From Mastigias papua (lineage: Eukaryota > Cnidaria > Scyphozoa > Rhizostomeae > Mastigiidae), in NCBI GenBank assembly GCA_964019165.1, contig OZ025275.1:12207030-12271029 (forward strand): a DNA stretch of 64,000 nt, given 5' to 3'. Of the stretch, positions 6,246 through 59,000 are shown one piece after another; the first letter of the stretch is position 1, and each line of letters opens with the position of its first letter. The translations under genes were made by a program, and so were the position numbers. The notes below the pieces were generated by a model that worked only from the letters and a program-made list of their open reading frames with translations, had not been told where the DNA came from and did no database searches.

Positions 6246-6251
6246 AGTTAA

Positions 6252-7051
6252 GGCCTGGTAAAACGCTCTCGACTTTTCACTTGACTGAGCTCGACTTTGA
6301 TGTTGAGGAAAAATTGAGAGCGTTTGAGCACCAAGTCGAGATCAGTTCGAGAGCCGTCGAGAGTAGTCGGGAGCAGTCGAGAGTAGTTGAGAGCAATCGA
6401 GAGCAACCGAGAGCAGTCGAGAGCAGTCGAGAGTAGTCGAGAGCAATCGAGAGCAATCGAGAGTAGTCGAGAGCAATCGAGAGCAGTCGAGAGCAGTCGA
6501 GAGTAGTCGAGAGTAGTCGAGAGCAATCGAGAGCAATCGAGAGCAGTCGAGAGCAGTCGAGAGTAGCCGAGAGCAATCGAGAGCAATCGAGAGCAATCGA
6601 GAGCAGTCGAGAACAGTCGAGAGCAGTCGAGAGTAGTCGAGAGCAATCGAGAGCAATCGAGAGCAGTCGAGAGCAGTCGAGAGCAGTCGAGAGTAGTCGA
6701 GAGCAATCGAGAGCAGTCGGAAGTAGTCGAGCAAAGTTTGAAAATGTTCAAAACTTGAATGTAGTCGAGAGTGTTTGAACACCTCCTCGACAAAATTTGA
6801 GTGTAAGCCTCTGCTATCTTTCCCGCCAAAAAGTTGAAACAGCAGATGACTGCTCAACTCCGTTCTAATTGCAGCTTGTGTCGGATACATTACTTTTATG
6901 TGAAATCAAACATGCTTAAAGATTGTGAGATTCAGTCATCTCTAAACACACATTGGGCGCCACAGTGGACAATAATCAGTTCATGTCTCTGCGAATGAGA
7001 TTTGCTCTTGTGAAAATGTCGAAAGAAAAGTCGAGAGCGTTTGAACATCCC
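6252..7051. mobile_element. nonautonomous element with inverted ends around a minisatellite
   Basis: The left end carries AAACGCTCTCGACTTTTC (near 6260-6277). The right end carries its reverse complement, GAAAAGTCGAGAGCGTTT (near 7026-7043). Both are followed on the outer side by a related short G/C-containing end. The interior consists largely of the 10-bp minisatellite listed separately plus flanks rich in TCGAG motifs. No transposase is encoded. I could not find a convincing target-site duplication, so the exact ends are uncertain. Confidence 0.5.
6341..6729. repeat. 10-bp minisatellite, unit GAGAGCARTC
   Basis: There are nearly 40 head-to-tail copies of a decamer with variants GAGAGCAGTC, GAGAGCAATC and GAGAGTAGTC. 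The variants are arranged in a higher-order order (CAGTC, CAGTC, TAGTC, CAATC, CAATC repeating). Because 10 is not a multiple of 3, three reading frames stay open on the - strand and give artificial Leu/Ser/Arg repeat ORFs. Confidence 0.95.
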
Positions 7052-8499: not shown

Positions 8500-8630
8500 T
8501 TAACCATAAATGTATGGTAATGAGCCTCTGCGTCTTCTGCCGGAGCCGCGTCTCCTGTAATAGGATCGACGTCTTGAGTAACCCCTTCGACGGCGTGCGT
8601 ATGGATCATTCTCCTTGAAATGGTCCTGAT
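8500..8630 (-). CDS. gene A exon 3 (arginine-block C-terminus)
   Basis: The acceptor lies in catattttagatatag, followed by ATCAGG as in gene B. The exon encodes D-Q-D-H-F-K-E-N-D-P and then four Arg blocks; the stop codon is TAA at 8500-8502. The DQ(E/D)...NDP lead-in and the RRRR-aromatic spacing are shared with gene B. Confidence 0.85.
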
Positions 8631-8664: not shown

Positions 8665-8709
<45 letters not shown>

Positions 8710-11700
8710 TCTCATCATCATTATCATAATCATCATCATCATCATCTTCATCACCATCATCATCATTATCATCATCATCATCATCATCTTCATCATCATC
8801 ATCGTCATCATCATCTATTTGTTGTTGGCAAGTTTACACAATAACTAAGAAATACAAATTTGACAGTTGCACTTATCAATAATCAAGATCTTAATGTTTC
8901 TTTAGAATGTAGCAAGAGAGGATGATTGCTGTATTTTATCATTAAAGGAGTTCCCAAGAATGCCCCCAATGAACGATTGAGACTCCAGGATCCTTTGCCC
9001 TATTGGTTGGCAAATTGCACAACTTCTTCTATCTCAAATCAGAGTTTACTTCTATCTGTTCGTGGAATGCCCGCACATTGGATGAATTTGAATTGTAAAT
9101 GGCCTTATGAATTTCTGTCAACAGAGACTGGAGATTGTAAATTATGGTTACCAATATTAAGTAAAAGCATTCCAAAAGGAGGCTCATAATTTTTCGTATA
9201 GCAGCCTAAAGATGCGCTTATGTGTATGTGTTATCTCATTATTGCCCGTTTTTCCGGCAAAGCGTATATATCTAGGGAATGTAGCTTACTTACAATCAAT
9301 TTCAGCACCTAGAAATTTAAGGTTATTGTTTATTGGCATTTTTGTACGTTCATTATCTATTCCAAGTCCCCTTTTTCCTTTGAACCAAAGGAGCATTTTT
9401 GGGATAATGCTTGAATCATCTCCCAGTACATAATATAGGTACCATATTTCTTCGAAAGAGACCCCCGGAGCTTCATTTAAAAACAGGCCTTCGAGGTGGG
9501 CGCTCTTTCAAGGGGGGTGCTCATTTCAAAATCGGGAGTAAAATAGCTGTATAGCAACTGCATTCAACAACTTCAGTTAGCACGACTGTTGATTAAACTA
9601 CTTTACACTGAATGACTATGACCATATCAACTTGCAATAGTGACTTTTAGCAACTAATGATAATACATGTAGCACACATTATAGAAAACCAACAGAGTAA
9701 CAACGAAAAGCAATGGAGCTATAGGATACCGGCATGAAAACATAACACACCAAAGAAAATGCACTAAGCATAAAATAGCACTTCATGAAGGAGTAACAAG
9801 TGAAATAGCTAATCTTATCTTATATGCTTTGATATATTATCCAATCAAAATATACCCTATAGTAACAATCATTACAGCACCAATAATGGTAATAATACTG
9901 ACAGTAAATTTGCAAAATGCAAATTTCATCATAGAATGTGATTTTCATTAAAAGGCTGAGTACTGTACAAGTGTAATACTGTAGATTTTTATTGCAGAGA
10001 TAGCTAATGAAGTAACCTAGGCAGGAAAGAAATACCTCGGGTACTAGAACTGCGCAAAGTCAAAGAACAAAAGATTAGAGAAGTGTTTAGAGTCGAGTAT
10101 ATGACTGAAAGTAATTATAAACTTTATGCTACATGGTAGGAATAAAAGTTAACCAATCAATACGTGGGCGGTATCATTATTGAAGTATGGGGAAAGCGTA
10201 GAACGGCCTTCAGAAGGTGAATATTGGATGCACAAAGAACGACGTTCAAAAGGTGAATAGAGAGACCAGAAATGCTATAACAATGCACAACGTATTATAT
10301 TGAAATTTAATTTGACTAGATGTTATGCATCAAGAAAGAAAGATGGTAGAGGTGTCATCGGTTTCTTGATTGTTTAGAAGTAGAGAAATGAAGACATATT
10401 AGGAGTTGTGGATGGCATGCAGGTATTGCGAAAAGAAGAAAGCTGGAACAGAAAGGCAGACAAATGGAGTTTGAGATAGCCCATTGTAGGAACTGATCCA
10501 GTTGCCTAGTAAGTTGAGTTTGCCGGGCATGCATCTAAAAGAAGCATCATCAACTGCCAAGTTCATATTGTCAGGTTTTGATTTGGCGAGTACATAGAAT
10601 ACACGCTTTTTATTATAGGAAAAATACTTTTTGACGTAGATGAAATTTTCTTAAGTCTTTGTTGGATCCCATTTACACGATGCCAGTGTGATGTGGCAAC
10701 AGTGGTATATCTTTTGATTTTCATATACCATATACACGATACAGGTACAAATGTCTATAATTTCTTATCGCCAAAAATTATCAAAGAAAAGCTTAGATCT
10801 TTATAAAGGAGCTAGCAAAGAATGAACCAACATCGATATCTGGCAAGTGAAAATGATTAACTTTGGAACTTAAGCCTTATGATTTTCTTGAAATTCTCTC
10901 CAGATTTTGGCCTCTTTAGCCTCATAGTATTGCAAACTTCTTTCTTTCAAAAAGGTATATTATAATTGATGATAAGGACACTTATCCGTGCCCCTGTATA
11001 GTATCTTTTGATGGTTTACAATGTAAAGATTATGATGGGACAGAATCCAAGAACTAGGACATGTTTGAATTCCAGTTGCCTTAATATCAGCTTAAAATAG
11101 CTTTAATGATTAGAAGGATAAGGAAATGGATCTAATAAGATTTTATTAGCAAAATATCTCAAGCATTTATCTAATTGGCATGGGAAATATTGACATTCAT
11201 GAAGAAATTTGGATCCTGAGAAGAATCATGAGTAGATATCAGCTTTATGGTGAAATAGTTACCTTCATCGTTCACCATATCTTCATCAGCATCTTCCACC
11301 AGCTCATCCTCGTCTTCCGGCATGTCTCTATTCTCATTTCTTGCTGAATTTGGGACAGCAGAGCCTGGAACGAGGTTGAAAAATCTTGATGGATAGATTG
11401 AACAAAGCAATTTACATAATGCAGAGAGATAAGAAGATGGTTAGGTTGTTGATACTGTATTATCTTGCTACTCAATGAAAATCAAGGTGAGAATTTGCGC
11501 ACGTTCATTTTGTCATAGAAAAGTGCAGCATCGCGACGAAAATGTGGATGTGATAAAATTGCTAGAATCTCTTTTTTATCTGCATCACTTGCTGAATCTG
11601 TGACAATAAAGCTTGAAGACTAGATTGAACAAAGTAAACAGCATTTTAAAGAAACGGACAAGACTGTCTTGATGCTTAAATGTCTAGTTATCCAATGAAA

Positions 11701-14562
11701 TGATGTGTGAGAATCGGTACAACATCATTTCGTTTTGGGAAGATGCAGCGTTGCCATGAAAATTTGTACGTGGTAAAAATAACAAGAATCAAGGGTTAAT
11801 TGATTAAGTTAGCACGTGACTACATTCAACCTTGCATCCAACAAATATTGAATCGCACGTTTTGTAGGAGGTGAAACTACCCAACAAATACAGGACGAGA
11901 ATATTCCGCCCCCAAGATAACTTGGAACAGCCCCAGTCACAGAAAAGTCACAAGAGCATCGATGATCCAGCAAAAATTGACAAACATGTATCATACAATA
12001 TGGCTTCAACTTTGAAAAGATGCCAGTTCACCACGATTTTATCATCTGTTGAAATTGAAAATTTGTCAAGCGAATCAGGAAAAAATCTGAAAGTGGAGTA
12101 GAGGACGTATAGAGACAGGTTTTCACCGCCAGTATAAGACAACTTGGTTCGCAAAGTTTTTCAACAATCTTTACCTTAATTTTAAATTGAGAAAAACATA
12201 TCGAGCCATCAAATCACTTGTTCAAACAGTGTCATTGAGGTTACAGTTAAAAGACCAGAAAGTAGTCGAGGCAACGAAATTGAAACATTACAGGGTATTG
12301 TACTTGCTGTGGCACTTGATCAAACCCTCAAATCGCACATTAGAACTGTTTGTAATCTTCTTAGTCAAACGACCCAACAGCAGCGAACAGCACCCCAGAA
12401 CAATGGCACACCGATATTGGATAATCCAATATTTGTCAACACATTCAAGACGTCATTTAGTATTCGTTGCACCATCCATCGAACAAGGTGGCCAGACGAT
12501 CCAAAGTTGGTCATTCAACAAGTGTTTGATGAATATTGGGAGAATGTTGGATGACATGTAGGGTCATATGACAGGGGCTTGTAATGTTTTACTAGCGTAG
12601 CTAAAAAGCATGTGCCACACAGAAGTCCTTGTAATGGGTCTGATTGGCCACAAAGTTCTTTCTAAATAGTATGTTGGTGCTAAAGAACTTCACTATTTCT
12701 CAAAAATGCGAGAACACTTTTTTAACATACTGAAAATCTCTTCTCGTCCGACATTTGTCAGAGTATGAAACGTCGGATAAAGACCGAATTATGAAACTTA
12801 ATTTATAATGAGATGCGGATAGATTCACGTGACAAGGTGAATATTTCGTCTGATTGGACGTACGGTTGGCCGATCAGCACCTATTCACTATTGTTCAGTT
12901 GAAGAGTGCAAGAGAGAGGGGGCTTTCTCGAACAATAGGAGAGTTCTTTCTCGGTGCTCATGGATCTATAGTAAATAACATCTCTGAGGGCACTGTCCTA
13001 GCATCTGCTTGCTCTGAGTCACTTTTTGATCCACTACAGATGTTGTATCGGAACAACTTCTTGTTACACACATGTATGTGATCCAATACAAGACGTGTTT
13101 GCCTAACCGATACATCCTTTGTACCTGCTACCTTTTTTGTCTTGCGAAAACGGGGCACTGTTTTACTTATGCGGATCAAAAGCTGTACCGGTACAGTGTA
13201 GATGCAATTGCACGGAGCACTTTTTGCAACGGATCAAAAAATGATCCGGCACAGTGTAAACGGGGCCTTAGATACAACCTACAGTATGTCTAAAGCATCA
13301 ATGACTGAATCAATGTGAGGGAACAATTTAGTCCACACAGGAATACAGAAATACTTTTACACCTAAAAGTCATGTCCACTGCAATGGCAAAATTTCGTCT
13401 TTAAACGATGTTATTTTATTAAAAGTTCTGCAATCATCCCACGACTGGGTGTCGTCTCTTAGAGACGAATTTATTTTCTGTAGTAAGAATGTTTCAATAT
13501 GTAGATTGGATATTTTATTCAGTGAAAAATCAAGATTTTTTGGTTAAATAACTAGCAATTAGAGGTAAAATCAACAGTGTTGTTGCTGCAATAGTTATCA
13601 TTATCTCTTCTTGATGGAAGAGATTGTAGCTGAAGTATCTAGGTAAAGTAGAGGATCTCAAGAAGGGAAGAAAGTGAAGCTTTCAAAGCTCTCATAAGCA
13701 TGCTTCAATTGAAAGGGAGTTTCATTCACAAATGTAATTCTTCATTGGCTGCTACAAAAAGACCTTTCAGATATTTTTTGTGGCTTGAGTCTACAAATGA
13801 AAGATGCTATTCTTTCATCTCAGAATAGAAGGTTTTGGCTTCAAGCATGTCCATCGATAGGACCGTATTTGAAAAATAAGAGCCGTTATTGATTTTGTAT
13901 CGTATGCGAAAAATATTTCATTGAAAGACCAAATGCACCTATCTTTGTCAAGCAATGGAAAGCTCTCCAATGCAAGGTGGTCTAGATGTAAATGACGGTA
14001 GCTAGCACGCCCTCTTTTCGTATTTTCATACTACAATCATCAATTTTTATGATTATGTAATGAGAGTACTGCGGCATACAAAACTAAATAAGATCAATCT
14101 AAGACCTAAAATGGAACCTACTTCATGCTTTTACGAAGCTACACGGAAACTAGTCATAGAATTTGAAAATTCGCGATGACCTTGAATGCTGCTATCTTCT
14201 AAAACAGTGCATCAAATTACTGCTATAAAGAAGTATACAAGAGAGTAGAACATTTAAGAGGTATGCACTGTTGATTTATCACCAGCCAATTTGACTATCA
14301 GGAAATTGCAGTTCACTATAGCAGAGAATAGTCGCAGTTCTGAAGTTGCAATTCGTTATTAAATAGTTAATCCGAGCCACACCTTGGAGTTCTGTCTAAC
14401 CAAAATTAATTAGCAGGCAATATCGCAGGTAAAGCATATGAAAATATTGTGTAAGCCACTCTTTTAATAACATATTCAAAATGCTACTCAAATAAATAAA
14501 GACATACTGTAGTTTACTGCAACGAAGCAAAGGGCCAACATCAGTACCAAAACAGGCTTCAT
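8500..14562 (-). CDS. gene A: secreted acidic/arginine-block peptide precursor (3 exons)
   Basis: The coding exons are 14508-14562, 11263-11364 and 8500-8630, joined at phase 1 both times, giving 95 residues. Residues 1-19 are a signal peptide (MKPVLVLMLALCFVAVNY), which directs secretion. About residues 20-60 are rich in Asp/Glu (for example DMPEDEDELVEDADEDM). The C-terminus starts DQDHFKENDPYA and is built from arginine blocks (4, 3, 3 and 4 Arg) spaced by GYS, SYY and GSG. It ends in PYIYG, whose final Gly could donate a C-terminal amide. There is no Cys after the signal. Gene B is a paralog with the same exon plan. The acidic-then-basic layout is like cationic antimicrobial peptide precursors (Hydra arminins), where the acidic part neutralises the basic peptide; that function is inferred. 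A polyanion-packing or matrix role is an alternative. Confidence 0.8.
8667..8815. repeat. (CAT)n microsatellite in intron 2 of gene A
   Basis: About 50 trinucleotides, mostly CAT, with scattered CTT, CAC, CGT and TAT variants. On the coding strand of gene A it is (GAT)n and would read poly-Asp. It lies only about 35 nt upstream of the exon 3 acceptor. It gives a false poly-His ORF on the + strand. Confidence 0.95.
8816..11262. other. intron 2 of gene A, remainder
   Basis: No second gene is supported inside this intron. Near 9435-9560 there is a G-rich repeat beginning 'accatatttcttcgaaagagac', containing an imperfect inverted pair (gctctttcaaggggg / cttcgaaagagaccccc). A related end, 'accgtatttcttcgac', occurs at 23250. 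It is probably a MITE remnant. The + strand ORFs at 8926-9189 and 9212-9433 are unassigned. Confidence 0.4.
11263..11364 (-). CDS. gene A exon 2 (acidic segment)
   Basis: The acceptor is ...ctcgttccag and the donor is G|gtaact. The 102-nt exon is phase 1 at both ends. It encodes about 34 residues, dominated in the second half by Glu and Asp with the core PEDEDELVEDADED. The DEDELV stretch is shared with exon 2 of gene B. Confidence 0.8.
11330..11790. repeat. local tandem duplication covering the start of gene A exon 2
   Basis: The segment from about 11340 to 11570 is repeated in diverged form from about 11575 to 11790. Shared anchors include 'cttgctgaatttgggacagc' versus 'cttgctgaatctgtgacaat', 'agattgaacaaag', and a later block with 'gcagcatcgcgacgaaaat' versus 'gcagcgttgccatgaaaat'. 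The distal copy has lost the acidic codons, so it is an exon 2 relic within intron 1. Confidence 0.6.
11870..12560 (+). pseudogene. possible decayed ORF region in gene A intron 1, antisense
   Basis: Two open + strand stretches (11871-12101 and, in another frame, 12309-12554) have protein-like composition, for example CNLLSQTTQQQRTAPQ and TRWPDDPKLVIQQVFDEYW. The frame between them is broken. No family was recognised. A retroelement or captured gene fragment is possible; chance is not excluded. Confidence 0.25.
12700..12870. repeat. interspersed 'GTATGAAACGTCGGATA' repeat, copy 1
   Basis: The copy contains catactgaaaatctcttct, cgtccgacatttgtcagagt and atgaaacgtcggataaagac, followed by 'gatgcgga...cacgtgac'. 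Diverged copies are at 21990-22170 and 51355-51480, and in reverse orientation near 33585-33690. The GTCCGACA...TGTCGGAT arms are partly inverted. The class is unknown. Confidence 0.55.
12871..14507. other. rest of gene A intron 1
   Basis: No exon is supported. A G/C-richer patch near 13120-13265, with repeated 'ggatcaaaa' and 'acagtgta' words and ending 'aacggggcctta', looks like a small nonautonomous element, but its ends are unclear. Confidence 0.35.
14508..14562 (-). CDS. gene A exon 1 (signal peptide)
   Basis: The start is the ATG at 14562-14560. The exon encodes 18 residues with a hydrophobic core and stops one base into codon 19, at a gtatgt donor. Its length (55 nt), split phase and sequence (MK-x-x-V-x-x-x-LALCF) match exon 1 of gene B, which decides the start. 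Confidence 0.8.
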
Positions 14563-14627: not shown

Positions 14628-14635
14628 TATTTATA
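14628..14635 (-). promoter_or_regulatory. candidate TATA box of gene A
   Basis: TATAAATA on the - strand lies about 66 nt upstream of the gene A start codon. A start site about 30 nt downstream would leave a short 5' leader. This is a motif match only. Confidence 0.4.
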
Positions 14636-14999
14636 TTGCAATGGGGCCAGGGGCTGTGTTTCCTGGCGCTATCCTTATCTGGTTCAAGAATTAACACCGC
14701 AAAATGGTATTATGTGCTTGGCTGGAGTTTCATTGTTTTCCGTTCCAATTTGTGCTTTTCCTTAACTTTGCAATAACAGTATGTGGAAAAGTACTTTGTT
14801 CTTTGTTTTCTTAAATTTCCAAAAACAGCTTTTTGTTTGAACTCTCCAACCGTGCAGGTTCAGAATCAAGTGGTAAAACGAACTGTTGCATAACCGTACC
14901 CTTGAATAAAACCAAAGCGAAATACAAGTCATAGGAATAGGATTAACAGTCACCCAAAAGAAACAGGTATGTTCTCCACTTCCCCAAATTAAGCAGCTA

Positions 15000-27610: not shown

Positions 27611-27677
27611 CAGTGAGACGCGCGCGATCGCACAAGAGCGCGCAGGCACGCGCCCAGCCCAGTTCACGCGCTCGATA
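27611..27677. other. CpG-dense island-like patch
   Basis: About 65 bp with many CG dinucleotides (for example gacgcgcgcgatcgc and cacgcgccc) sits in otherwise AT-rich sequence immediately before the gypsy ORF. A second CpG-rich patch (gggcgcgattggcagcgcgc) lies at 31503-31526, after the element. Confidence 0.6.
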
Positions 27678-30600
27678 TGTTTGCAATTACCCTTGCAACT
27701 CAAATTGAACTTAGCCGCAAAGGAGCCAAATCTCTCACTTGTAGAGGGGGAGAGGATGTCGGTGAAACAAATTTTACAAATAGAGCAAAACTAAAGAAAT
27801 CTATTGCTACTGGTAAATTTCCAGGAGTAGATGTTAAGAAGAAAATTGTATGTTATAGATGTGGGGGTGCACATAAAGCACCAGAATGCAAATTCAAAAG
27901 TGAAAAGTGCCACAATTGTGGTAAAATTGGTCATTTAAAGAAGGTTTGTAAGTCCAAAAGCAAGCCTGCAAAAACAAACTTATTGGAACATATTCCTTGT
28001 TCTACATCAGAGGTAGAAGAGTCAGATACTTGTTTCAGCATTGATCTGTTTGGTATGAATGAATTAAAAGCAACATCACCTATTATGAAGCAAGTAAATG
28101 TTAATGGTAAACCTATGAATTTCCAGGTAGACACAGGTTCCTCTTTTACAATCATGGGGTATGATAAATATGAAGATTTTAAAGACAAATATGGATTAGG
28201 CCAGTTGAAATCAGTGGTTGCTTTTCCAAGGACTTTTACTGGAGAAGAAGTGAAGATGAAAGGACAAGTGACAGTTCAAGTTAATATTGATAAATTTTCA
28301 AAGAAATTGTCAATATTGGTTGCTCCATGTAAAGGCCCTGTATTATTGGGTAGAGATTGGATTAGTGAAATCAATCCAAACATGTATAACCTTTTCCAAA
28401 TGGAATATAAAACGAAGAGTGAAAATAGACAAAGCAAAATTGATGCAATTTTGTCAGAATTCACTGATGTATTTGACAATCATCTAGGATGTGTAAAGAA
28501 TATGAAGGCAAATATTCAAATAATTGACAAGGCTCAACCAGAATTTAAGCAAGCAAGACCTGTACCTTATGCAGTACGTACAAAGGTTGAGGAAGAACTT
28601 GAAAGGTTGCAAGAAAATGGTGTTATAGAACCAGTAGAACAATCAGAGTGGGCAGCACCTATTGTTACTAGAATCAAACCTTCAGGTCAAGCAAGAATAT
28701 GTGGAGATTTCAAAGTTACAATCAATAAAGTTACTAAACCAGATAAATATCCTCTTCCTAGAATAAAGGATGTTTATACCAAACTTAACAATGGGGAAAA
28801 GTTTACTAAATTGGATTTGAACAATGCATTTTTACAAGTTGAATTAGACCAAGAAAGTCAAGAGTATTGTACCATAAATACTCATAAAGGTTTGTTTCGT
28901 TTTACTCGAATGCCATTTGGAATTACTTCAGCACCTTCTATATTTGCTAGATTGATGGATCAAGTAATGCAAGGTCTTAAAGGATGTGCTTGGTTCCAAG
29001 ATGATATAATTATTACAGGTAAAACTGATAAAGAGCACATGGACAATTTAATTGCTGTTTTGTTAAGATTACAGAAATGGGGTATTAAAGCTAAACTTGA
29101 AAAATGTGAATTCATGAAGGACAGAGTGGAATATTTGGGTTATATTATAGACACTGATGGCTTGCAGCCAACTGTTGATAAACTTTCAAAGATTGCAAAT
29201 GCTAAAGAGCCTATTGATGTAAATGAAGTTGAAAGTTTTTTGGGACTTGTCAATTATTACAGAGATTTTATTCCAAATGCAAGTGATTTGATGGAGCCAC
29301 TTAACAGATTGAGGAGAAAAGATGTTACGTTTCATTGGGGTAAAAATGAAAGAGATGCTTTTCAGTCCTTAAAGTCTGCAATTAACAATAGTTCATTGTT
29401 AGTGCATTTCAATCCAAATCTTCCATTGAAGTTGACTACTGATGCAAGTCAAACAGCAAGTGGTGGAGTATTGAGTCACATTTATGCTGATGGATCAGAA
29501 AGGCCCATTGCATTTACAAGTCGTACATTTACATCTGCAGAACGAAATTATAGCAACATTGAGAGAGAGTCACTTGCTGTTATTCATGGAGTTAAGAAAT
29601 TCTATGACTATCTGTATGGACGTTCTTTTACTATTTGCTCAGATCACAAGCCTTTGGAGAAGTTGCTAGGTCCTACTAAAGAAATTCCGCGTATGACATC
29701 ATCAAGAATTCAAGCTTGGGCGCTTTATCTTTCACAGTTTAAATATAACTTTGAGTATAAACCTGGATGCAAGATTCCTCATGCTGATTTTATGTCCAGA
29801 GTGGAAACAGAGAAAGAAACAACATTAGAACATGTTGAAGATCAGATCTCCTCTGATACTATTCTCACATTTGAAGTGTTTGATGAGTATCCAGTGATTA
29901 ATTCAAAGGAAATTGCCAAATATACTAGGAGAGTGGGAAATTTTTCAGTCCTTGAAAGATACATTAAGCATGGATTTCCTGAGCAAAGTCAATGTCAACA
30001 AGAACTGTTACCATTTTATTTTCGCAAGGATGAACTTTCTATTCAAAGAGGTTGTATTATGTGGGGAAACCGTATTGTTATTCCACCATTACTTCGACAA
30101 AGAGTTCTTAATTTACTTCACATTGGACATCCAGGTATAAATCGAATGAAAGAATTAGCACGATCCTATACTTGGTGGCCAAAGATTGACAAGGACATTG
30201 AAGAAAAAGTACGCATGTGCAATAATTGTCAATTTGCTAGAAATAGTCCTGAACAGAATCTAAATCATCCATGGGAGCGAACAGTTAGAGTGGGTGAAAG
30301 AGTTCATATTGATTTTGCTGGACCTGTGGATAAACACATGTTATTGATACTTGTTGATAGTCATTCTAAATGGATAGAGGCTATCCCAATGAAGTCTACA
30401 ACAGCTTCTGATACTATCGAAGTGTTGGAAGAGATATTTGCATGTATTGGTCTTCCTGAAACACTTGTTTCGGACAATGGACCACAGTTTACAAGTGTCG
30501 AGTTTAAATTGTTTTGTAAAGACAATAGTATTCGTCATCTTTACAGTGCACCATATCATCCAAGTTCCAATGGCTTAGCAGAGAGAGGTGTTCAAACAGT

Positions 30601-31204
30601 AAAGATGATGCTTAAGAAAAATTCTGGAGGTTCTTTACAGTCAAGACTCAACAGAAGTTTGTTTGCTTATAGAAGTACACCAAATGCCAGTGGTAAAACT
30701 CCAGCTGAAATTATGTTTGGAAGACAAATTAGAACCAAACTTACATCTTTACGACCTATGGACAATGATGTTAAGATGAAGGGGGCGACTACTTCTGATA
30801 GACAGTTACCGGTTGGTCAACATGTGTTATTTCGCATGTATAAGGATAACAAAAGTTATTGGTATCCTGGAAAGATTGTAAAAAAGTTTGGAAATGTGAT
30901 GTATACTATTCAAGACAGCAAAGGATTACTTCACAAAAGGCACATTGATCAGCTGATAGAGGGGTATATCAGTAATTATACAGATAAAGAGGAATTAGTT
31001 ATACCGCCAATGTCCACGGAAAGAGTGAAATTGGACACTGTACAAACTCAAGTCCAGCCTTCTATAGTGATGGAAACAACAGAACAGATTCAGGGTGACG
31101 ATTCAGCGCTTCAAGATGCTGAGGAACAAAATGTTCAAGAACACACTATACGTAGAAGTGCAAGATCTACAAAGGGCGTGCCCCCTGTAAGACTGGGCTA
31201 TTGA
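27677..31204 (+). CDS. Ty3/gypsy retrotransposon gag-end/pol polyprotein (K02A2.6-like)
   Basis: A single uninterrupted 1175-codon frame carries the enzymes for reverse transcription and integration of an LTR retrotransposon. In order: two CCHC zinc knuckles (C59-C71 and C78-C91); an aspartic protease with VDTGSS (D152); reverse transcriptase with YPLPR near 358 and FQDD near 440; RNase H starting at TTDAS near 587; an integrase HHCC zinc finger near 814-850; a D,D,E core with D in HIDFAGP near 877, D in SDNGPQ near 932 and E in GLAERG near 967; and a GPY/F-like module near 1050-1100. The N-terminal main part of gag is missing, and the first codons may not be element sequence. All catalytic residues are kept, so insertion is recent or the ORF is under selection; recent 5'-truncated insertion is more likely. 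Confidence 0.93.
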   Translation: MFAITLATQIELSRKGAKSLTCRGGEDVGETNFTNRAKLKKSIATGKFPGVDVKKKIVCYRCGGAHKAPECKFKSEKCHNCGKIGHLKKVCKSKSKPAKTNLLEHIPCSTSEVEESDTCFSIDLFGMNELKATSPIMKQVNVNGKPMNFQVDTGSSFTIMGYDKYEDFKDKYGLGQLKSVVAFPRTFTGEEVKMKGQVTVQVNIDKFSKKLSILVAPCKGPVLLGRDWISEINPNMYNLFQMEYKTKSENRQSKIDAILSEFTDVFDNHLGCVKNMKANIQIIDKAQPEFKQARPVPYAVRTKVEEELERLQENGVIEPVEQSEWAAPIVTRIKPSGQARICGDFKVTINKVTKPDKYPLPRIKDVYTKLNNGEKFTKLDLNNAFLQVELDQESQEYCTINTHKGLFRFTRMPFGITSAPSIFARLMDQVMQGLKGCAWFQDDIIITGKTDKEHMDNLIAVLLRLQKWGIKAKLEKCEFMKDRVEYLGYIIDTDGLQPTVDKLSKIANAKEPIDVNEVESFLGLVNYYRDFIPNASDLMEPLNRLRRKDVTFHWGKNERDAFQSLKSAINNSSLLVHFNPNLPLKLTTDASQTASGGVLSHIYADGSERPIAFTSRTFTSAERNYSNIERESLAVIHGVKKFYDYLYGRSFTICSDHKPLEKLLGPTKEIPRMTSSRIQAWALYLSQFKYNFEYKPGCKIPHADFMSRVETEKETTLEHVEDQISSDTILTFEVFDEYPVINSKEIAKYTRRVGNFSVLERYIKHGFPEQSQCQQELLPFYFRKDELSIQRGCIMWGNRIVIPPLLRQRVLNLLHIGHPGINRMKELARSYTWWPKIDKDIEEKVRMCNNCQFARNSPEQNLNHPWERTVRVGERVHIDFAGPVDKHMLLILVDSHSKWIEAIPMKSTTASDTIEVLEEIFACIGLPETLVSDNGPQFTSVEFKLFCKDNSIRHLYSAPYHPSSNGLAERGVQTVKMMLKKNSGGSLQSRLNRSLFAYRSTPNASGKTPAEIMFGRQIRTKLTSLRPMDNDVKMKGATTSDRQLPVGQHVLFRMYKDNKSYWYPGKIVKKFGNVMYTIQDSKGLLHKRHIDQLIEGYISNYTDKEELVIPPMSTERVKLDTVQTQVQPSIVMETTEQIQGDDSALQDAEEQNVQEHTIRRSARSTKGVPPVRLGY

Positions 31205-33399: not shown

Positions 33400-44356
<10,957 letters not shown>

Positions 44357-52346: not shown

Positions 52347-52537
52347 TTACTTTCCATAGCTACGTCTTCGTCTGATTGATCGGCGTCTTCTGACATAGCG
52401 TCGTCTTCTATAGTAGCGTCGTCTTCTAACATAGCGTCGTCTTCTAACATAGCGTCGTCTTCTAACATAGCGTCGTCTTCTAGAATATCTTCGACGGCGA
52501 AAGAAGAATGGATCGTTTGCATTCAATTGCTCCTGAT
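52347..52537 (-). CDS. gene B exon 3 (RRRRYV repeats)
   Basis: The acceptor is gcttcatattctag, the same context as in gene A; it then reads D-Q-E-Q-L-N-A-N-D-P and eight tetra-arginine blocks. The stop codon is TAA at 52347-52349. A second - strand frame across the repeat reads EDDAML repeats, acidic and equally open; phase and homology to gene A select the arginine frame. Confidence 0.85.
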
Positions 52538-55500
52538 CTAGAATATGAAGCATACACTCATTCACTCAATAAGCTGTTTTTCTCACCGTAAATGTCATTT
52601 CACAGCTCGTGTGTTTTACCAAATTTACCGTGACTATCACTCATTGATTTTGTTGCCAACTAAATTTTCAGCGGATTCCATTCAATAGGTAATTCCACAA
52701 ATTACAGCAGCCTTGAAATCTCAAGTCAGTGCTATTAAATGTCTCTTTCTTGTTTACCAAGAGATAACCATTTAGCTATTCAGAAATTTCTAGGTACTTT
52801 AGAAGTTTAAAAAATAAAAAAAAAATAAAAAAGAAAAAAAATGAAAAAGAAAATAAAATAAAAAATAAAAGTAAAAAAGAATCGATTCATCTGGTTCAAG
52901 TAACGTAGGGTGAAGAGTATAGATACTGGCATTTTCCTGCAACCCTGCCCACAACCACGTGTATCCGAAACTACCAACTGCAATATCGTTTAAACTAGCA
53001 CCATGCTCAATGTAATCCCCCTATTCCAGCTCTCTCGCAGCATCATCTAGAGTATTAGGTTCTAGTTAGAGAAACTGCAGCCATTTCTAGTACATAAGAT
53101 GCTCTCTTGATAGTGTACTGGTCGTAGGAAATTGAGGGTATCTCCAGAGACTTAGACTGGAAAATTTATAGGAGGGGCATGACGGAGATTTTCCGACAAA
53201 GAATAAGACGTGTATTCATATTATGTGAACATCTTTGCTTTCAACATCGAACACTTGGTTGCCCACCTGTGCCCCTCTGTCTATGCGATTGGGTGTCTCT
53301 TATTTCTATATGAAGCAGGGTTTTAAAGGAATATTTCAAGTTCCATATTATTCTCACGGCTGATATATTGAGGAATAATCTTTCATTCTCATGAGAATAA
53401 ACAAACAGCACTTGACGAACAAGCATGCATGACGAACAATGCAGATTTATATATAACACTCTACTGTATAGAGAATACTGTATAGAGAATCTACCTCAAT
53501 AGATTTATCATGTATTCTGCACAGATTTTTCTCTAGTAACACATGCGAGGCTAATACTTGTAAAAGCCTCTGATTCGGAGACATTAACATTATACAACAA
53601 AAGGGGGCAATGTAAGGTGCCTATAGGTACGGACGTGCCGCACCAGCCAATATATTTGCCGTTAATATGGCGTGCATAGTATTGCATTGAACAAAAATCG
53701 TATTTGAAAAGTGTACAAAAAGATCTGTGCTTTGGTATCTTGCTCGAGAACGTATGTATGTAAATTAATATATAAGCTTGCCTGTATTTTAAGTATACTT
53801 TGCTGGCAATGTGCTTATGACACAATTAACATTTGATGCATATTTATAAAGGCAAATTTGCGGAATTGTCGTCATATGTAGCTCAGTCGTGCTCTTTGGA
53901 TTAAAAGGTCTTAGTGGCCTGGCATGGCGAGAAAGCATCCAAAGGCCAGCCTGATTAGGAGTGAGCTTGCATGGTTATCGGCTCTGTCCAGCCGATTTAT
54001 GGCAAGACAGCAATGTATATAAATGGCTTCAAAGCCAGCCCACTCAGTGGTATCCCTCAAACTTGGCCACAGACCTCCGCCTTTAGAAGTCTGCGGAGAA
54101 AGTTCCTGGCAAACAGTTATTTTTGACGAGGTTACTTCAAGAAAATATTATGAAGTAGGACTGGCATTTTATTCACCTACGATATATATGCTCTTCCGAA
54201 GAACAGAGAGCCTGGTTTTTTGACCCCATAGCATGTCTGTAAAGACTGAAATGTTTTGATGTAAAAGATAGGCTCGTTCAAGCACACAAGATTGAGACTT
54301 GCCCAGTGTATACTGAAGACAGGATAATCTCGGCACGGCTAGCCACTATCCAGGCACAGCGCTGCCAAATAAAAAGTGGAAGCTACATATAAAAAATGGC
54401 GGGGCTTAAAACAATTAGTTGCTTGATAAAGACTAGAAAAATTACTGGCTTGCAAAAATTAAGGGGCTGAAGGCCCCCCAACTTCCCTACCGACACCGTG
54501 TCTACTATCAGGCACTGTTGTAGGCCATAATACATAAGGAATGGACAAATTTTAGAATATAGTTTTGGCGATTTTCTTGGCTTCAAACAAAATTTTTGAC
54601 TATGTTCTACTACTGGTCTGTACTCTTGTTTGGTCGGTTTCATATGAAATACTTGCGACTCCAGCTGGTTTAGCCATACAAGCTCATCTAGCTGGACTGG
54701 CTCACCTCCGTGTAAAGTTGCATATATGCTAACTTAGCATTTCCAGATTCTTACTTGACGAGTAAATAGAACTCTGATATCATGAACTTTGGTATTATGA
54801 ACTCTGATATTATGAACTCAGTGGAAGAATCGCTGGTTAAGGCCTATTTTTGTAAAATTTCCTTTCATACCTGCGTCTTTCACCAGCTCATCTTCATCAT
54901 CTGATGCTACGCTGGAATCTGGATCTTCCTCATCCTCTGATGATTCATCACTTTCAACCGGATCTTCCTCATCATCTATGGGCTGGTCATTTTCATCCTC
55001 AGCATATGCCCCTTCTTCCGAAGCTTTATCCTCTGCTGTGACTTCAGCGCGATTGGCTAGCGCTTCTTGCACAGATGATACTTGAGTTACTATTGAAAAA
55101 ATGATAGAAAATGGAGATGGAAAAAGCATATGGTACAATGAAGGATCCACACAAGAAAAGGATTTTGAGGCTTTCAATTGCTTGAGTGAAAGACTCTAGC
55201 TTCCAGTAAAATCGCAGTCGTGCAGAAAGACTTTAAACTACGGGGATCGCACCTGTACCAGATAATGGTGAAAATTTGACGTTTTTTCGTTTAAGATACA
55301 TGAAGCTATAAAAAGAATAGTGGAGAAGGCACGCCAGAACATTTGGAATGCAGCACGATTGACAAGAAACAAACGAGAGTTAACAGCTGTGGGTAGAAAC
55401 TAGGTCCAAAAGACTTAACCAACGATCAAACATGCCTATTTTGCTCGTAACTGTTTGTGTTAGCAGCTACTGCCTTGCTTTGGTTAGTATTGTGGGCCTT

Positions 55501-56032
55501 TTCCTTTCATTCACTTAGCACTGGATGATGCTTCAAGCAAACTGATATAAAACCAAGGTTGAGGGAAAGTTTTATGCACTTCATGTTTGTTTTCAATGTG
55601 CATCTCTACATCCACCACATTCTTAGCGATGGTGTGGCAGGAATGGAGAAAATGATTTCCATACATTACTAAATACTAAAGAGCGCAAAGAATGAACGAT
55701 GACCAACAAATTTGAAACTTTTAAGCATAACAACAATTGATTGTAAAACCTCAGTCCACACTTTGTGCCCAACCACTGCTCTTTGCTCCGCAGTTGTGTG
55801 TACTCTCAGATTTCATTTAGCTAAAAATACTCTCAACTGGCAACAGTATTTAAGACTATGGAATCTAAGAGAAAAATCACCAAATAATTTCATCTTATCC
55901 AACCACTCATGGTGGTACAAACAATATTCTTTCTCCATTAGGTTATACTTACAGTGGTTATTGGAGGATATACTTACCACAGTTAGCAACGATGAAGCAG
56001 AGCGCCAATGCTAGTATCACCAACGACTTCAT
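52347..56032 (-). CDS. gene B: secreted acidic/RRRRYV-repeat peptide precursor (3 exons)
   Basis: The exons 55978-56032, 54871-55089 and 52347-52537 join at phase 1 twice, giving 154 residues. Residues 1-18 are a signal peptide (MKSLVILALALCFIVANC). About residues 19-91 carry roughly 30 Asp/Glu (for example ESDESSEDEEDPDSS). The C-terminus starts DQEQLNANDPFFF, then has eight RRRR blocks separated by YS, YV, YV, YV, YY, YV and SI, ending SYGK. The 18-bp repeat keeps the frame, so a tetra-Arg-Tyr-Val hexapeptide is iterated. Compared with paralog A the acidic part and the basic part are both longer, so charge stays roughly balanced. The RRRR blocks could be furin-type cleavage sites. No known domain; an antimicrobial or polyanion-binding secreted peptide is inference. 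Confidence 0.82.
52380..52500. repeat. 18-bp coding minisatellite in gene B exon 3
   Basis: About six tandem copies of TCGTCTTCTAACATAGCG (+ strand), encoding the RRRRYV unit on the - strand. The copies are nearly identical in the middle and diverged at both ends, indicating recent expansion. Confidence 0.92.
52538..54870. other. intron 2 of gene B
   Basis: It contains an A-rich low-complexity patch at about 52808-52880 and nothing else recognised. Near 54395-54490 the words ttagttgcttgataaagact and 'aggggctgaaggcccccc' suggest a decayed MITE. ORFs such as 54023-54223 are unassigned. Confidence 0.4.
54871..55089 (-). CDS. gene B exon 2 (acidic segment)
   Basis: The acceptor is attttttcaatag and the donor is G|gtatga; 219 nt, phase 1 at both ends. 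It encodes VTQVSSVQEALANRAEV and then a long Asp/Glu/Ser tract ending DDEDELVKDA. DEDELV is shared with gene A. The Ser residues in acidic context are casein-kinase-like sites (inference). Confidence 0.82.
55978..56032 (-). CDS. gene B exon 1 (signal peptide)
   Basis: The start is the ATG at 56032-56030 and the donor is gtaagta, a consensus site. 55 nt, the same as gene A exon 1, with the shared MK..V....LALCF core. Confidence 0.82.
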
Positions 56033-59000
56033 TGTCCTTTCCCTGGTAAGTCAACTTACCAGCGTTAACAGACTTGTGGGAATAATCGCCTTTGCGGCTT
56101 GAATTTATTACCTTAGTGCCAGCGGCCCATAACCTTAGCCCTGCCCTCGTCCACTAAATTGAAAGATGAAACAGATAAAGGCTCGGTTCTTAAATCCAAC
56201 CTCCATGGGCCGAACCTAAACCAAAGGATCTATCCTCAAGCTCAAATCATCACTCTTTCTGTTTCAGCCAGGTGTTTGTATATAATTTTGTCACTTTGAA
56301 GGAGTGTTGCTCTGCTTGACGAGACATATCGCACAGGTTCTCTTTAGTACGGCAACGTTTTTCAGAAAAAAACGCGCCTCATTAATAACATACCAGAATA
56401 CTGAATTACCTGCCACAGCATCAAAAACCCATAGGCCAAAAGTTGTAAATGATAAACGCATGTTAACGTTTAACTTTGTTTTGTAATTACAAAGATAACT
56501 ATCGGACTGGCTTTGCCCCTTGACGTGGCATTCAACTTAGATTTCACCCTACCCGACTGTAAGCCATTCCTTGTCAATGAAGTGGCAACCTTTCAATGCA
56601 GAAATCAGTCAACTTTGAAACAGTTGAACATAAACAGCTTGGTGCCGATCTAAAACTGAGATTTATCGACCTTTTATGAGCGAACTATTTGTGTTTGAGA
56701 CTTGTTGGAGGCCAATGAGAATTGCCAGAAAAGTTTTTCGGTGAAACTCTACGAAATACTTCTCTATATCTTTATCAAATGATCATTGATCTTCATTATT
56801 AGCTTCTGAAAGAGGTTATTTGCAAGAAGTAAAATTTATGTAAATGCACTAGCATTTTGGCACATTCTACCAAATGACCGAAACCATTAGGCCTAGTGTG
56901 CTTTCGAAATAGAAGAGATGCTGAGTAACTAAAACTGAGCTGAAAATACTAAATTATTGGATTTGTCTTTCCTGTGTCAAATAATGAGCATTTTGCTTTC
57001 CATTGGTCTATCTTCTAGTGACCAAATACCCAAATCCGCTTTAGGTGGTAGCTACCATAAGTTGAAAAAACAAACCATATCTTTGTATTTTGTAAAATAT
57101 TATGCGATATTAATGAAAAAGGCCTTTGCAAGGTAGCCAACAAATATTTTTTATTCGAAGCGATTCTGATTATTCTTTTGATAATGTTTTCAATTTTACA
57201 AACCTGAGCTTCTCGGAAATCTTGCATGCAAATCTCTCCTTTGTTTTCACTATTGTTTTTGACCAACCATCTCATGGTTTCAAACAAATAAAACCAGTTT
57301 TCCTGAAATTCATTTAAAATTCACAATAAGCTGCTAAATGCTAGAGTCCTGGAATTGCTGCAATTCATGGACAGTAAAGACTGGTTTTCCTCGAAATTGT
57401 AACAGCAAGTCGTTCTATATCTGGAAATCAATTGATTTAGGTACACTTCTTTAAGAAAAGCAAAAGGAATGAAAGCACAGATTCCTTGTGCTTCAAATAT
57501 CACGTAAGCATTCCAGAACAATATTTCCCTGCCAAAACATTAGCCACAGGGCTCTCTGGCTTTCAGATAGGAGCTGTGGTTATGATAAACATGTGAAAAG
57601 CTCGATATGATCATGATCCATACATCGATTGTAACTGATTCCGATAATAGCTTTTACTATATTTACCAAATCATCAATCTGCTTTCTGAGTACCATGTAC
57701 TAGTTTCGAAATCCACACGAAGGAGCTTTATAGTTGAATGAATTCTCTGAACCCAAAGCATGATTGCAGGGTACAAATATGATGAGAATTCGTTATCATG
57801 TTTTGAGAATTATGAATAATAGACACTAAGAATACTCTTCAACCAAGTAAAAGAGTTTTAAAAATTCTTTAGCGATTTATAACCTTTACTACATTGTAAA
57901 AAAATAGCAATATAACCCATCTTTACAACTATTTCTCTGCAAGCTACCAGAATCTAAAAACTAACAATCAAAAATTAAATCAGTATTTTTGAAGAACAAA
58001 CAGTCTTTAATAATAGGAAATGTCAAGAAAAATACACAAGGTATGGTTCTGGGGTCAGTTAAGATAACTACTATCTAATTGATGTTTTTCCTAGTTTTAC
58101 GGAAAATATCATATTACTATGTGACAGAGCAGCACTGACCTATTTGCGATCTAAAGAATCGAAAAGCACAGTAATTTTTTTATTCTCCTGTTTGTTTCTC
58201 ACATAGAAGCTGATAATAAAATATCCAGATTGGTCTCTGTAAACCTGCGGGTTGTAAAAATTCCAAAAACATTAATTTCAATTTCCTTAATACTTTCTTA
58301 TCAATCAGTCGTTTTGTAAAAGCTGTCTTACCAAGTAAATCAAGAATTTCTGAAGTAATTGCTAGTTTTGACAAGGGAGACTTTGGAATTATGTTAAAGT
58401 ATAAACCAATGTTATTTCTGCTTATATTTAGGAAGTTATGTAAGCAGTTAACGTACGATATACTTAATTCCTTTGTTATTTGTTACGACAAGGTTCATTC
58501 CCTATTTGTTGGGTTTTAAGAAGATTGTCCAGTTGACTGGCAATGCTCTCTTTAATTGGTATTTGTCGCACTATTTGAGTTGACCTTTTTCAATACTGGA
58601 GACCCTGTTCAGCATTATAGAAAAGAGAAGGAAAATATGTTTACTGGAAGGGAAGAGCAGCACGTTGCTTAGGTTTGATAACAGAGCATCAATAATGTGA
58701 CCGAAAGTAGCATTTCTGCTATAGTGAAATTTAATGTAGTGGAGCTGATGTAGTGAATGTGAGAAGTTTACCCTATGGGTCATTACTACATAGCTGAACT
58801 CCCATTAGTTATCTGTGAATGGTTCGCTACACTTTTCTAGACTGTTTTTTATTTTATCGATAATATATCCATTCTAGCCATTAGCATTGCACTTAAAGAA
58901 CGAAAAGTTGTAGCAATCGGGACCAGTTTCTGAGTATGACTGTGGCAACTGGAAATACTCCCGACAGCTTTGACTGACACCAAGCCCTTTTGTACTGTTG

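Follow-up and report, generated by a model that had tools for sequence, protein, structure and literature searches.

An apparently undescribed family of putative secreted poly-arginine precursors in the jellyfish Mastigias papua

Introduction

Antimicrobial peptide (AMP) precursors of the cnidarian Hydra mostly show a bipartite charge, and their families are described in the relevant portion of one source as multi-copy, clustered, young and fast-evolving (PMC10945409). The same source presents the arminins as restricted to the genus Hydra (PMC10945409), and a length of 88 amino acids (aa) is listed for them elsewhere (PMC11820242). Arminin-like precursors reported from Trichoplax comprise a signal peptide, an acidic N-terminal part and a basic C-terminal part with a C-terminal Gly for amidation (PMC12013895). 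For scyphozoan tissue, a 2025 review names Aurelin of Aurelia aurita, a defensin- and toxin-like peptide, as the sole AMP isolated so far (PMC12194522). In this work, we describe gene A, which is predicted to encode a secreted precursor with eight tetra-arginine blocks, and its relatives in the scyphozoan Mastigias papua. Gene A lies in a stretch of 64,000 nucleotides (assembly GCA_964019165.1, contig OZ025275.1, positions 12,207,030 to 12,271,029 of the forward strand), hereafter the window; positions are those of the window, and negative values lie to its left.

The jellyfish genes share with arminins, as far as these are portrayed in the sources above, the order of signal peptide, acidic N-terminal part and basic C-terminal part, the presence of tandem paralogues, the lineage restriction and, in part of the members, a Gly end. 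In contrast to arminins, their predicted mature part consists of tandem RRRR blocks with aromatic or hydrophobic linkers and reaches up to 412 residues. The precursor plan is already known, and the RRRR/aromatic array and its expansion are the new part. With Aurelin they would share the standing of secreted jellyfish defence peptides, if the proposed defence role is correct; membership of an Aurelin or defensin-like family was rejected, as there is no Cys-stabilised domain and exon 3 holds no Cys in four of the five local genes (A to D) and two in the fifth (E). We interpret the family as lineage-specific, tandemly duplicated secreted precursors for which an arminin-like host-defence role, suggested by sequence features and analogy, is held with roughly even confidence.

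Structure of gene A

Gene A comprises three exons on the minus strand (Table 1), an anatomy read from genomic sequence that we consider near certain; the model comes this close to certainty because the paralogues share the three-exon plan. Joined in frame across two phase 1 introns, the exons give a precursor of 151 aa, in which a signal peptide and an acidic segment precede the arginine array. The acceptor of exon 2 is ambiguous, an AG 9 bases upstream (55089) adding 3 residues for a total of 154 aa. Linkers within the array are, in order, YS, YV, YV, YV, YY, YV and SI, the program TRF (Tandem Repeats Finder) reports it as an 18-bp tandem repeat, and the terminal SYGK reads as an amidation-type C-terminus.

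An earlier sequence-only reading of this locus had proposed three exons with matching phase and suitable splice sites, an acidic part of about 73 residues with some 30 Asp/Glu and an RRRR repeat with 32 Arg ending in SYGK. Each of these elements was recovered, the acidic residues amounting to 30 of 70. The function suggested in that reading, a secreted peptide for defence or polyanion binding, is putative. Likewise, the view that the frame appears only after splicing holds, with paralogues of the same plan backing the gene model, and the signal/acidic/basic order with its arminin-type likeness is found in gene A and its paralogues alike. The notion of a new-looking single precursor stood for the layout but not for the singleness, since gene A belongs to a multi-gene family with a second member, gene B, in the same window.

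Exon 3 also contains an acidic frame, recognizable by the motif EDDAML. In gene A a stop (IRSN-stop) lies between the acceptor and the array, so that the splice is unable to reach this frame. Furthermore, every one of the five local genes keeps an open Arg frame. The acidic frame is interrupted by one stop before the array in C (RIN-stop), by 13 stops in D and by 24 in E; gene B, with its short exon, has no such stop. The acidic frame was rejected as the product on these grounds.

Table 1. Positions of gene A, gene B and their upstream boxes in the window
Feature	Position	Strand	Content
Gene A exon 1	55978..56032	-	ATG and signal peptide MKSLVILALALCFIVANC; donor GTAAGT, phase 1
Gene A exon 2	54871..55080	-	Acidic segment, 70 aa, 16 Glu and 14 Asp; donor GTATGA
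Gene A exon 3	52347..52537	-	DQEQLNANDPFFF, then eight RRRR blocks; 63 aa, 32 Arg; ends SYGK and stop
Gene B exon 1	14508..14562	-	MKPVLVLMLALCFVAVNY; donor GTATGT, phase 1
Gene B exon 2	11263..11364	-	Acidic segment, 14 Asp/Glu in 34 residues
Gene B exon 3	8500..8630	-	DQDHFKENDPYARRRRGYSRRRSYYRRRGSGRRRRGSLPYIYG and stop; short Arg array, C-terminal Gly
Promoter-like box, gene A	56103..56126	-	GCCGCTGG..ATAAAT, 94 bp before ATG
Promoter-like box, gene B	14631..14654	-	GCCCCTGG..TATAA, 92 bp before ATG

A local cluster of five genes

The region scanned comprised 264 kb, that is, the window and 100 kb on either side. It contains five genes (A to E) of one shared plan, with three exons, phase 1 introns and minus-strand orientation. 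The Arg arrays of genes C, D and E are found at about -26.5, -47.5 and -78.5 kb from the window, and no Arg array of the gene A kind was found in the right 100-kb flank. From A to E, the precursors measure 151, 95, 272, 280 and 491 aa; Asp/Glu account for 30/70, 14/34, 44/97, 24/69 and 20/60 residues of exon 2, and Arg for 32/63, 14/43, 88/156, 116/193 and 234/412 residues of exon 3. The length of gene E is based on the exon 2 form at -67988..-68167, two alternative forms leading to 498 and 513 aa. Lys occurs once or twice per local array. Four of the five genes terminate in Gly-Lys (A, C and E) or Gly (B), and gene D ends in RRRRV.

A hydrophobic exon 1 is present in all five genes, a hydropathy scan being the sole criterion for a signal peptide. 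When the 264 kb were scanned for an ATG followed by K/R, a hydrophobic stretch and a near-consensus donor in phase 1, five matches were obtained on the minus strand, one upstream of every local poly-Arg exon, and a single, dissimilar match on the plus strand. When run as a control for phases 0 and 2, the scan listed 4 minus-strand rows and 1 plus-strand row, and with relaxed settings in phase 1 it listed 21 (all five included) and 12, respectively. The scan was designed after gene A had been seen, and its value as a test is therefore limited to B-E.

In addition, alignment of the five upstream regions revealed a promoter-like box (GCC[GC]CTG, 5-25 bases, then TATAA or ATAAAT) common to A, B, C and D, where it precedes the ATG by 94, 92, 88 and 88 bp; gene E is devoid of it. 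The pattern occurs five times across both strands of the 264 kb, four of them at A-D, and, having been derived from the same sequences, it is evidence of shared sequence and not an independent test. AATAAA or ATTAAA is found within 1 kb of the stop in all five genes, which carries little weight in AT-rich DNA.

Divergence between repeats was counted at codon positions 1/2/3. In the gene E array, codons 13 apart differ 49/16/73 times over 373 pairs, 55 codon pairs being synonymous and 53 non-synonymous. Such a pattern would be expected of a maintained Arg frame, although the pairs are not independent. The arrays of A (10/7/11 over 40 pairs), C (21/14/20 over 77) and D (2/2/4 over 151) show no sign of selection for the frame, their differences being evenly spread over likewise non-independent pairs. 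The repeats of gene D are near-identical: a shift of 17 codons gives 151 codon pairs with 8 base differences. Between A and C, 36 codons show 4 synonymous and 2 non-synonymous differences, which are small numbers.

Three further observations were made in and around the cluster. An acidic exon with splice-like ends (GYGAQEATEDDPNEVKVEDETAEG...ESEG) lies between D and E at about -55.1 kb (contig C12, about 12.152 Mb); no partner exon 1 or exon 3 was found for it, and it is possibly a decayed sixth gene. A further Arg-rich repeat with Cys linkers, ICSRRRNCSRRR, is present on the minus strand at -85.1 to -85.3 kb, with no signal or acidic exon assigned to it. Just upstream of gene B exon 3, a GAT microsatellite (8681-8833, minus strand) encodes an Asp run and may illustrate how acidic exons originate.

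Distribution across the genome

The whole assembly (346.8 Mb, 172 contigs) was searched with the exon 3 protein of gene A, which produced 23 matches; they fall on four contigs (C12, C1, C8 and C23) and mark 12 places. These places are genes A, B, C and D, four at 4.98-5.19 Mb of C12, one on C1, two on C23 and one on C8. Best E-values were weak (0.03 to 0.84) at six of them (B, 5.133 Mb, C1, both on C23, C8), and direct reading of the sequence revealed Arg arrays at all six. Gene E was missing from the 23 matches, so that 12 places are a lower bound; 13 arrays were read, E included.

In the second C12 cluster, full models could be built for two genes, both with introns of phases 1 and 1. The first, with MQVKQLLLLAGIVAVALHNVVAENEQ, has 40 acidic residues out of 92 and carries 55 Arg in 96 residues; the corresponding values for the second, with MQVKLLLLLIGLCAISWHKVTAQYEE, are 38 of 99 and 62 Arg in 116. 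Weak donors (GTTTTT and GTTTGA) follow exon 2 in these two genes. The C8 member holds its acidic part and array within a single open frame, and a search for signal exons found no defensible one for either the C8 or the C1 member. At the C1 locus (9.737-9.743 Mb), the basic exon opens with a Lys-rich amphipathic head, DPVIGALGKLAVKAVKKLASKKKKK, continues as an RRRRYV array and ends in RRGRRGRRGRRG, with a candidate acidic exon about 3.9 kb upstream. The 18-residue core of this head has an Eisenberg helical moment of 0.51, compared with a shuffle mean of 0.23, and 164 of 10,000 shuffles were as high. The two C23 arrays, at 6.525 and 6.589 Mb, are of the RRRFIS/RRRSSF type, are separated by about 64 kb, point in opposite directions and have a common start, EPRAWGSRRRGGW; by these features they form a putative third subfamily.

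Linkers vary by locus and include YV, IF, IYY, SL, AHV, WV, FI, FV and WSS. A junction in which DP precedes aromatic residues and Arg blocks is common to genes A, C and D and to the second cluster. It is altered in B, E and the C8 member and absent from the C23 arrays. Of the 13 arrays, five (A, B, C, E and C1) close with Gly or Gly-Lys; D, both C23 arrays, the C8 member and the second cluster differ, the last with the ends GDVEN, GDAQA, GDAQA and GDAKADL.

Relatives in databases

About 8,000 candidates were scored in each database search. Besides P0001, itself one of the frames in the window, the gene A protein retrieved P0002 (158 aa, E 5.4e-7); an alignment of gene A and P0002 retrieved P0003 (180 aa, E 8e-4), and a six-sequence alignment P0004 (129 aa, E 1.2e-3, at a cut-off relaxed to 0.01). 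In each of the three, a single frame runs from a signal-like start through an acidic part to Arg/aromatic repeats, and P0003 and P0004 also carry a G or GK end; the junction lacks its P in P0002 and P0003. The arrays of the three are shorter, their linkers include W, C or H, and the matches of P0003 and P0004 are weak and composition-driven. Because biased composition inflates scores, common descent is likely but unproven, and least secure for P0004. The source of P0002 and P0003 is given as 'merc', which we take to denote marine metatranscriptomes, in which case both would be transcripts of this design; that of P0004 is 'ncbi'.

No match above the curated Pfam cut-off was obtained for A, B, P0002, P0003 or P0004, and the PDB search for the family yielded no useful match (best E 0.12). 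Among the matches listed in the open-licence PMC literature, none describes a family of secreted RRRR-aromatic arrays, and we know of no such family. The jellyfish precursors thus appear to be undescribed. They may be easily missed, since the frame arises only on splicing and simple-sequence filters may hide the arrays.

Possible functions

An arminin-like defence role is favoured because the same precursor plan is found together with Gly or Gly-Lys ends in four of the five local genes; the plan itself recurs in the five local genes and two genes of the second cluster. According to this proposal, the acidic segment would keep the polycation harmless inside the secretory pathway and be removed near the recurring DP-aromatic junction, and the C-terminus would be amidated in members ending in Gly or Gly-Lys. 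The Arg/aromatic repeat would then bind anionic microbial surfaces, with a potency that scales with repeat number.

Several points weigh against this proposal. Charges are matched in A (30 acidic against 33 basic) and B (14 against 15) but fail to match in C, D and E, gene E having 20 acidic residues in exon 2 and 235 basic ones in exon 3; simple intramolecular neutralisation is therefore untenable for the long members. As RRRR blocks form ideal furin-type cleavage sites, an intact array would require a protected route. With Gly or Gly-Lys ends in just 5 of 13 arrays, amidation is not general, and arrays of more than 100 Arg exceed what an AMP needs. Furthermore, the likeness to arminins concerns precursor layout, compared by plan and not by sequence homology, the function being read from genomic sequence only, and the E-values of P0002-P0004 lean on biased composition.

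The charge failure, the furin sites, the restricted Gly ends and the arrays above 100 Arg keep alive a structural role, which we judge possible, if rather unlikely. Acting as multivalent stickers, the arrays would condense a polyanion to form a gel or coacervate, be it in stinging capsules, in mucus or in the cement used for attachment; candidate polyanions are the poly-gamma-glutamate of capsules, sulfated mucus and the precursors' own acidic parts, which would be partners and not inhibitors. Arg together with Tyr, Phe or Trp is the classic sticker pair. Array length ranges widely, from 14 to 234 Arg across the five local genes, arrays of 100-230 Arg go far beyond what a usual AMP requires in length, and the near-identical repeats of gene D recall repeat-based materials. 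However, short members exist (exon 3 of B has 43 residues), the Gly or Gly-Lys ends of some members, like the C1 member's amphipathic head, resemble bioactive peptides, and the scarcity of Cys in exon 3 leaves little scope for cross-linking.

A broader version, somewhat more doubtful still, combines both roles: a genome-wide family of secreted poly-Arg/aromatic block polymers, each with its own polyanionic partner, would form a tunable polyelectrolyte material that also kills microbes. Valence would be set by repeat number, and uses would include capsule matrix, mucus gel or cement. If true, this would be a kind of secreted protein without earlier description. A multi-gene, repeat-expanding polycationic family would represent a large and easily overlooked part of jellyfish secretion. 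As a natural length series of poly-Arg, the genes are suited to asking how repeat number sets activity, and they raise the question of how 234 arginines can be secreted without cleavage or precipitation.

The silaffin precursors of diatoms also have a signal peptide, an acidic propart and strongly basic repeats, which are Lys/Ser-based, modified with polyamines and deposit silica. The likeness extends to this order of parts; membership was rejected, as each local exon 3 has only one or two Lys (the C1 member has its Lys-rich head).

Four-arginine blocks are also typical of fish and cephalopod protamines, which are nuclear, the fish ones being made without a signal peptide. A protamine-like or nucleic-acid-binding secreted protein, for instance of gametes or egg surfaces, is nevertheless improbable: the blocks recall fish protamines, but protamines have no acidic secretory propart, and all five local genes combine a signal-peptide exon with an acidic segment. 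Membership of the protamines was rejected on the signal exon. Germline expression alone could not separate this explanation from a defence role, since periculins are described, in the pertinent part of the source, as germline AMPs of Hydra with bipartite charge (PMC10945409).

A multi-copy neuropeptide-like precursor, in which RRRR would be cleavage sites, the short linkers products and SYGK the source of an amidated end, is very improbable. Basic blocks do flank short spacers regularly, and a Gly-Lys end is present in A, C and E, but linkers of 2-4 residues (YV, SL, SF, AHV, SYV, WV) are too short and variable for known ligands, and nearly all lack a Gly before the basic block, the sole exception being GSG in B. 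Membership of cnidarian neuropeptide precursors was rejected accordingly, Gly plus a basic residue occurring just once in a linker, in B, and at the ends of A, C and E.

Hardly credible at all is a minisatellite by-product, that is, frames open by chance in repeats of the AGAAGACG type, with no gene: in gene A the acidic frame, too, stays open across the array, which TRF reports as a tandem repeat, and differences in A, C and D are even over codon positions, but the signal exon, acidic exon, phase 1 junctions, promoter-like box and DP-aromatic junction recur in paralogues, gene E shows its uneven 49/16/73 pattern (from non-independent pairs), and a chance open frame was rejected on the paralogues and the box.

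Other features of the assembly

COX1, in which TGA encodes Trp, lies on one strand of contig C172 (16,455 bp); the opposite strand carries cox2, atp6, cox3, nad2 and nad5, names other than COX1 having been assigned by reading translations. Over the 10,000 bases scanned for tRNAs, standard ARAGORN found Trp-UCA and Met-CAU, and its laxer mitochondrial mode added Ser and Tyr. Two additional frames lie at the COX1-side end; a frame that we take to be polB-like, from its position and a motif, had no Pfam match. This layout fits the medusozoan mitochondrial plan outlined in part of PMC3519871 for Craspedacusta, discomedusan Scyphozoa and Staurozoa, in which the genes form two oppositely oriented clusters, trnM and trnW are the only tRNA genes, and two extra open reading frames lie at one end. 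The mitochondrial contig thus marks the host as a medusozoan, probably a scyphozoan, and not as a siliceous sponge, a host that had been considered along with a silaffin-like role. A second, divergent COX1 type is found on contig C121, with three full-length and two partial matches and one TGA inside the long ones. Its top PDB chain, apparently a plant one, is followed by fungal-type chains. An origin from a dinoflagellate symbiont is a tentative idea that these matches do not establish.

Two similar-looking sets of exon-like frames, both on the plus strand, lie at 34796-42000 of the window and at -94.8 to -86.7 kb. Both contain Ig-like segments (Pfam, at or near cut-off); CUB-like segments are weak and below cut-off in the left set and were judged by eye in the window set. 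The left set continues into a receptor-like tail with many Tyr motifs. A Gypsy-like retroelement occupies 27617-31201 (plus strand) as a frame of 1,195 codons, in which a zinc knuckle, protease, reverse transcriptase and integrase were recognized by eye. Finally, a tandem repeat of about 200 codons on the minus strand at 6251-6905, with LDCSRLLST in two overlapping frames, is probably a minisatellite.

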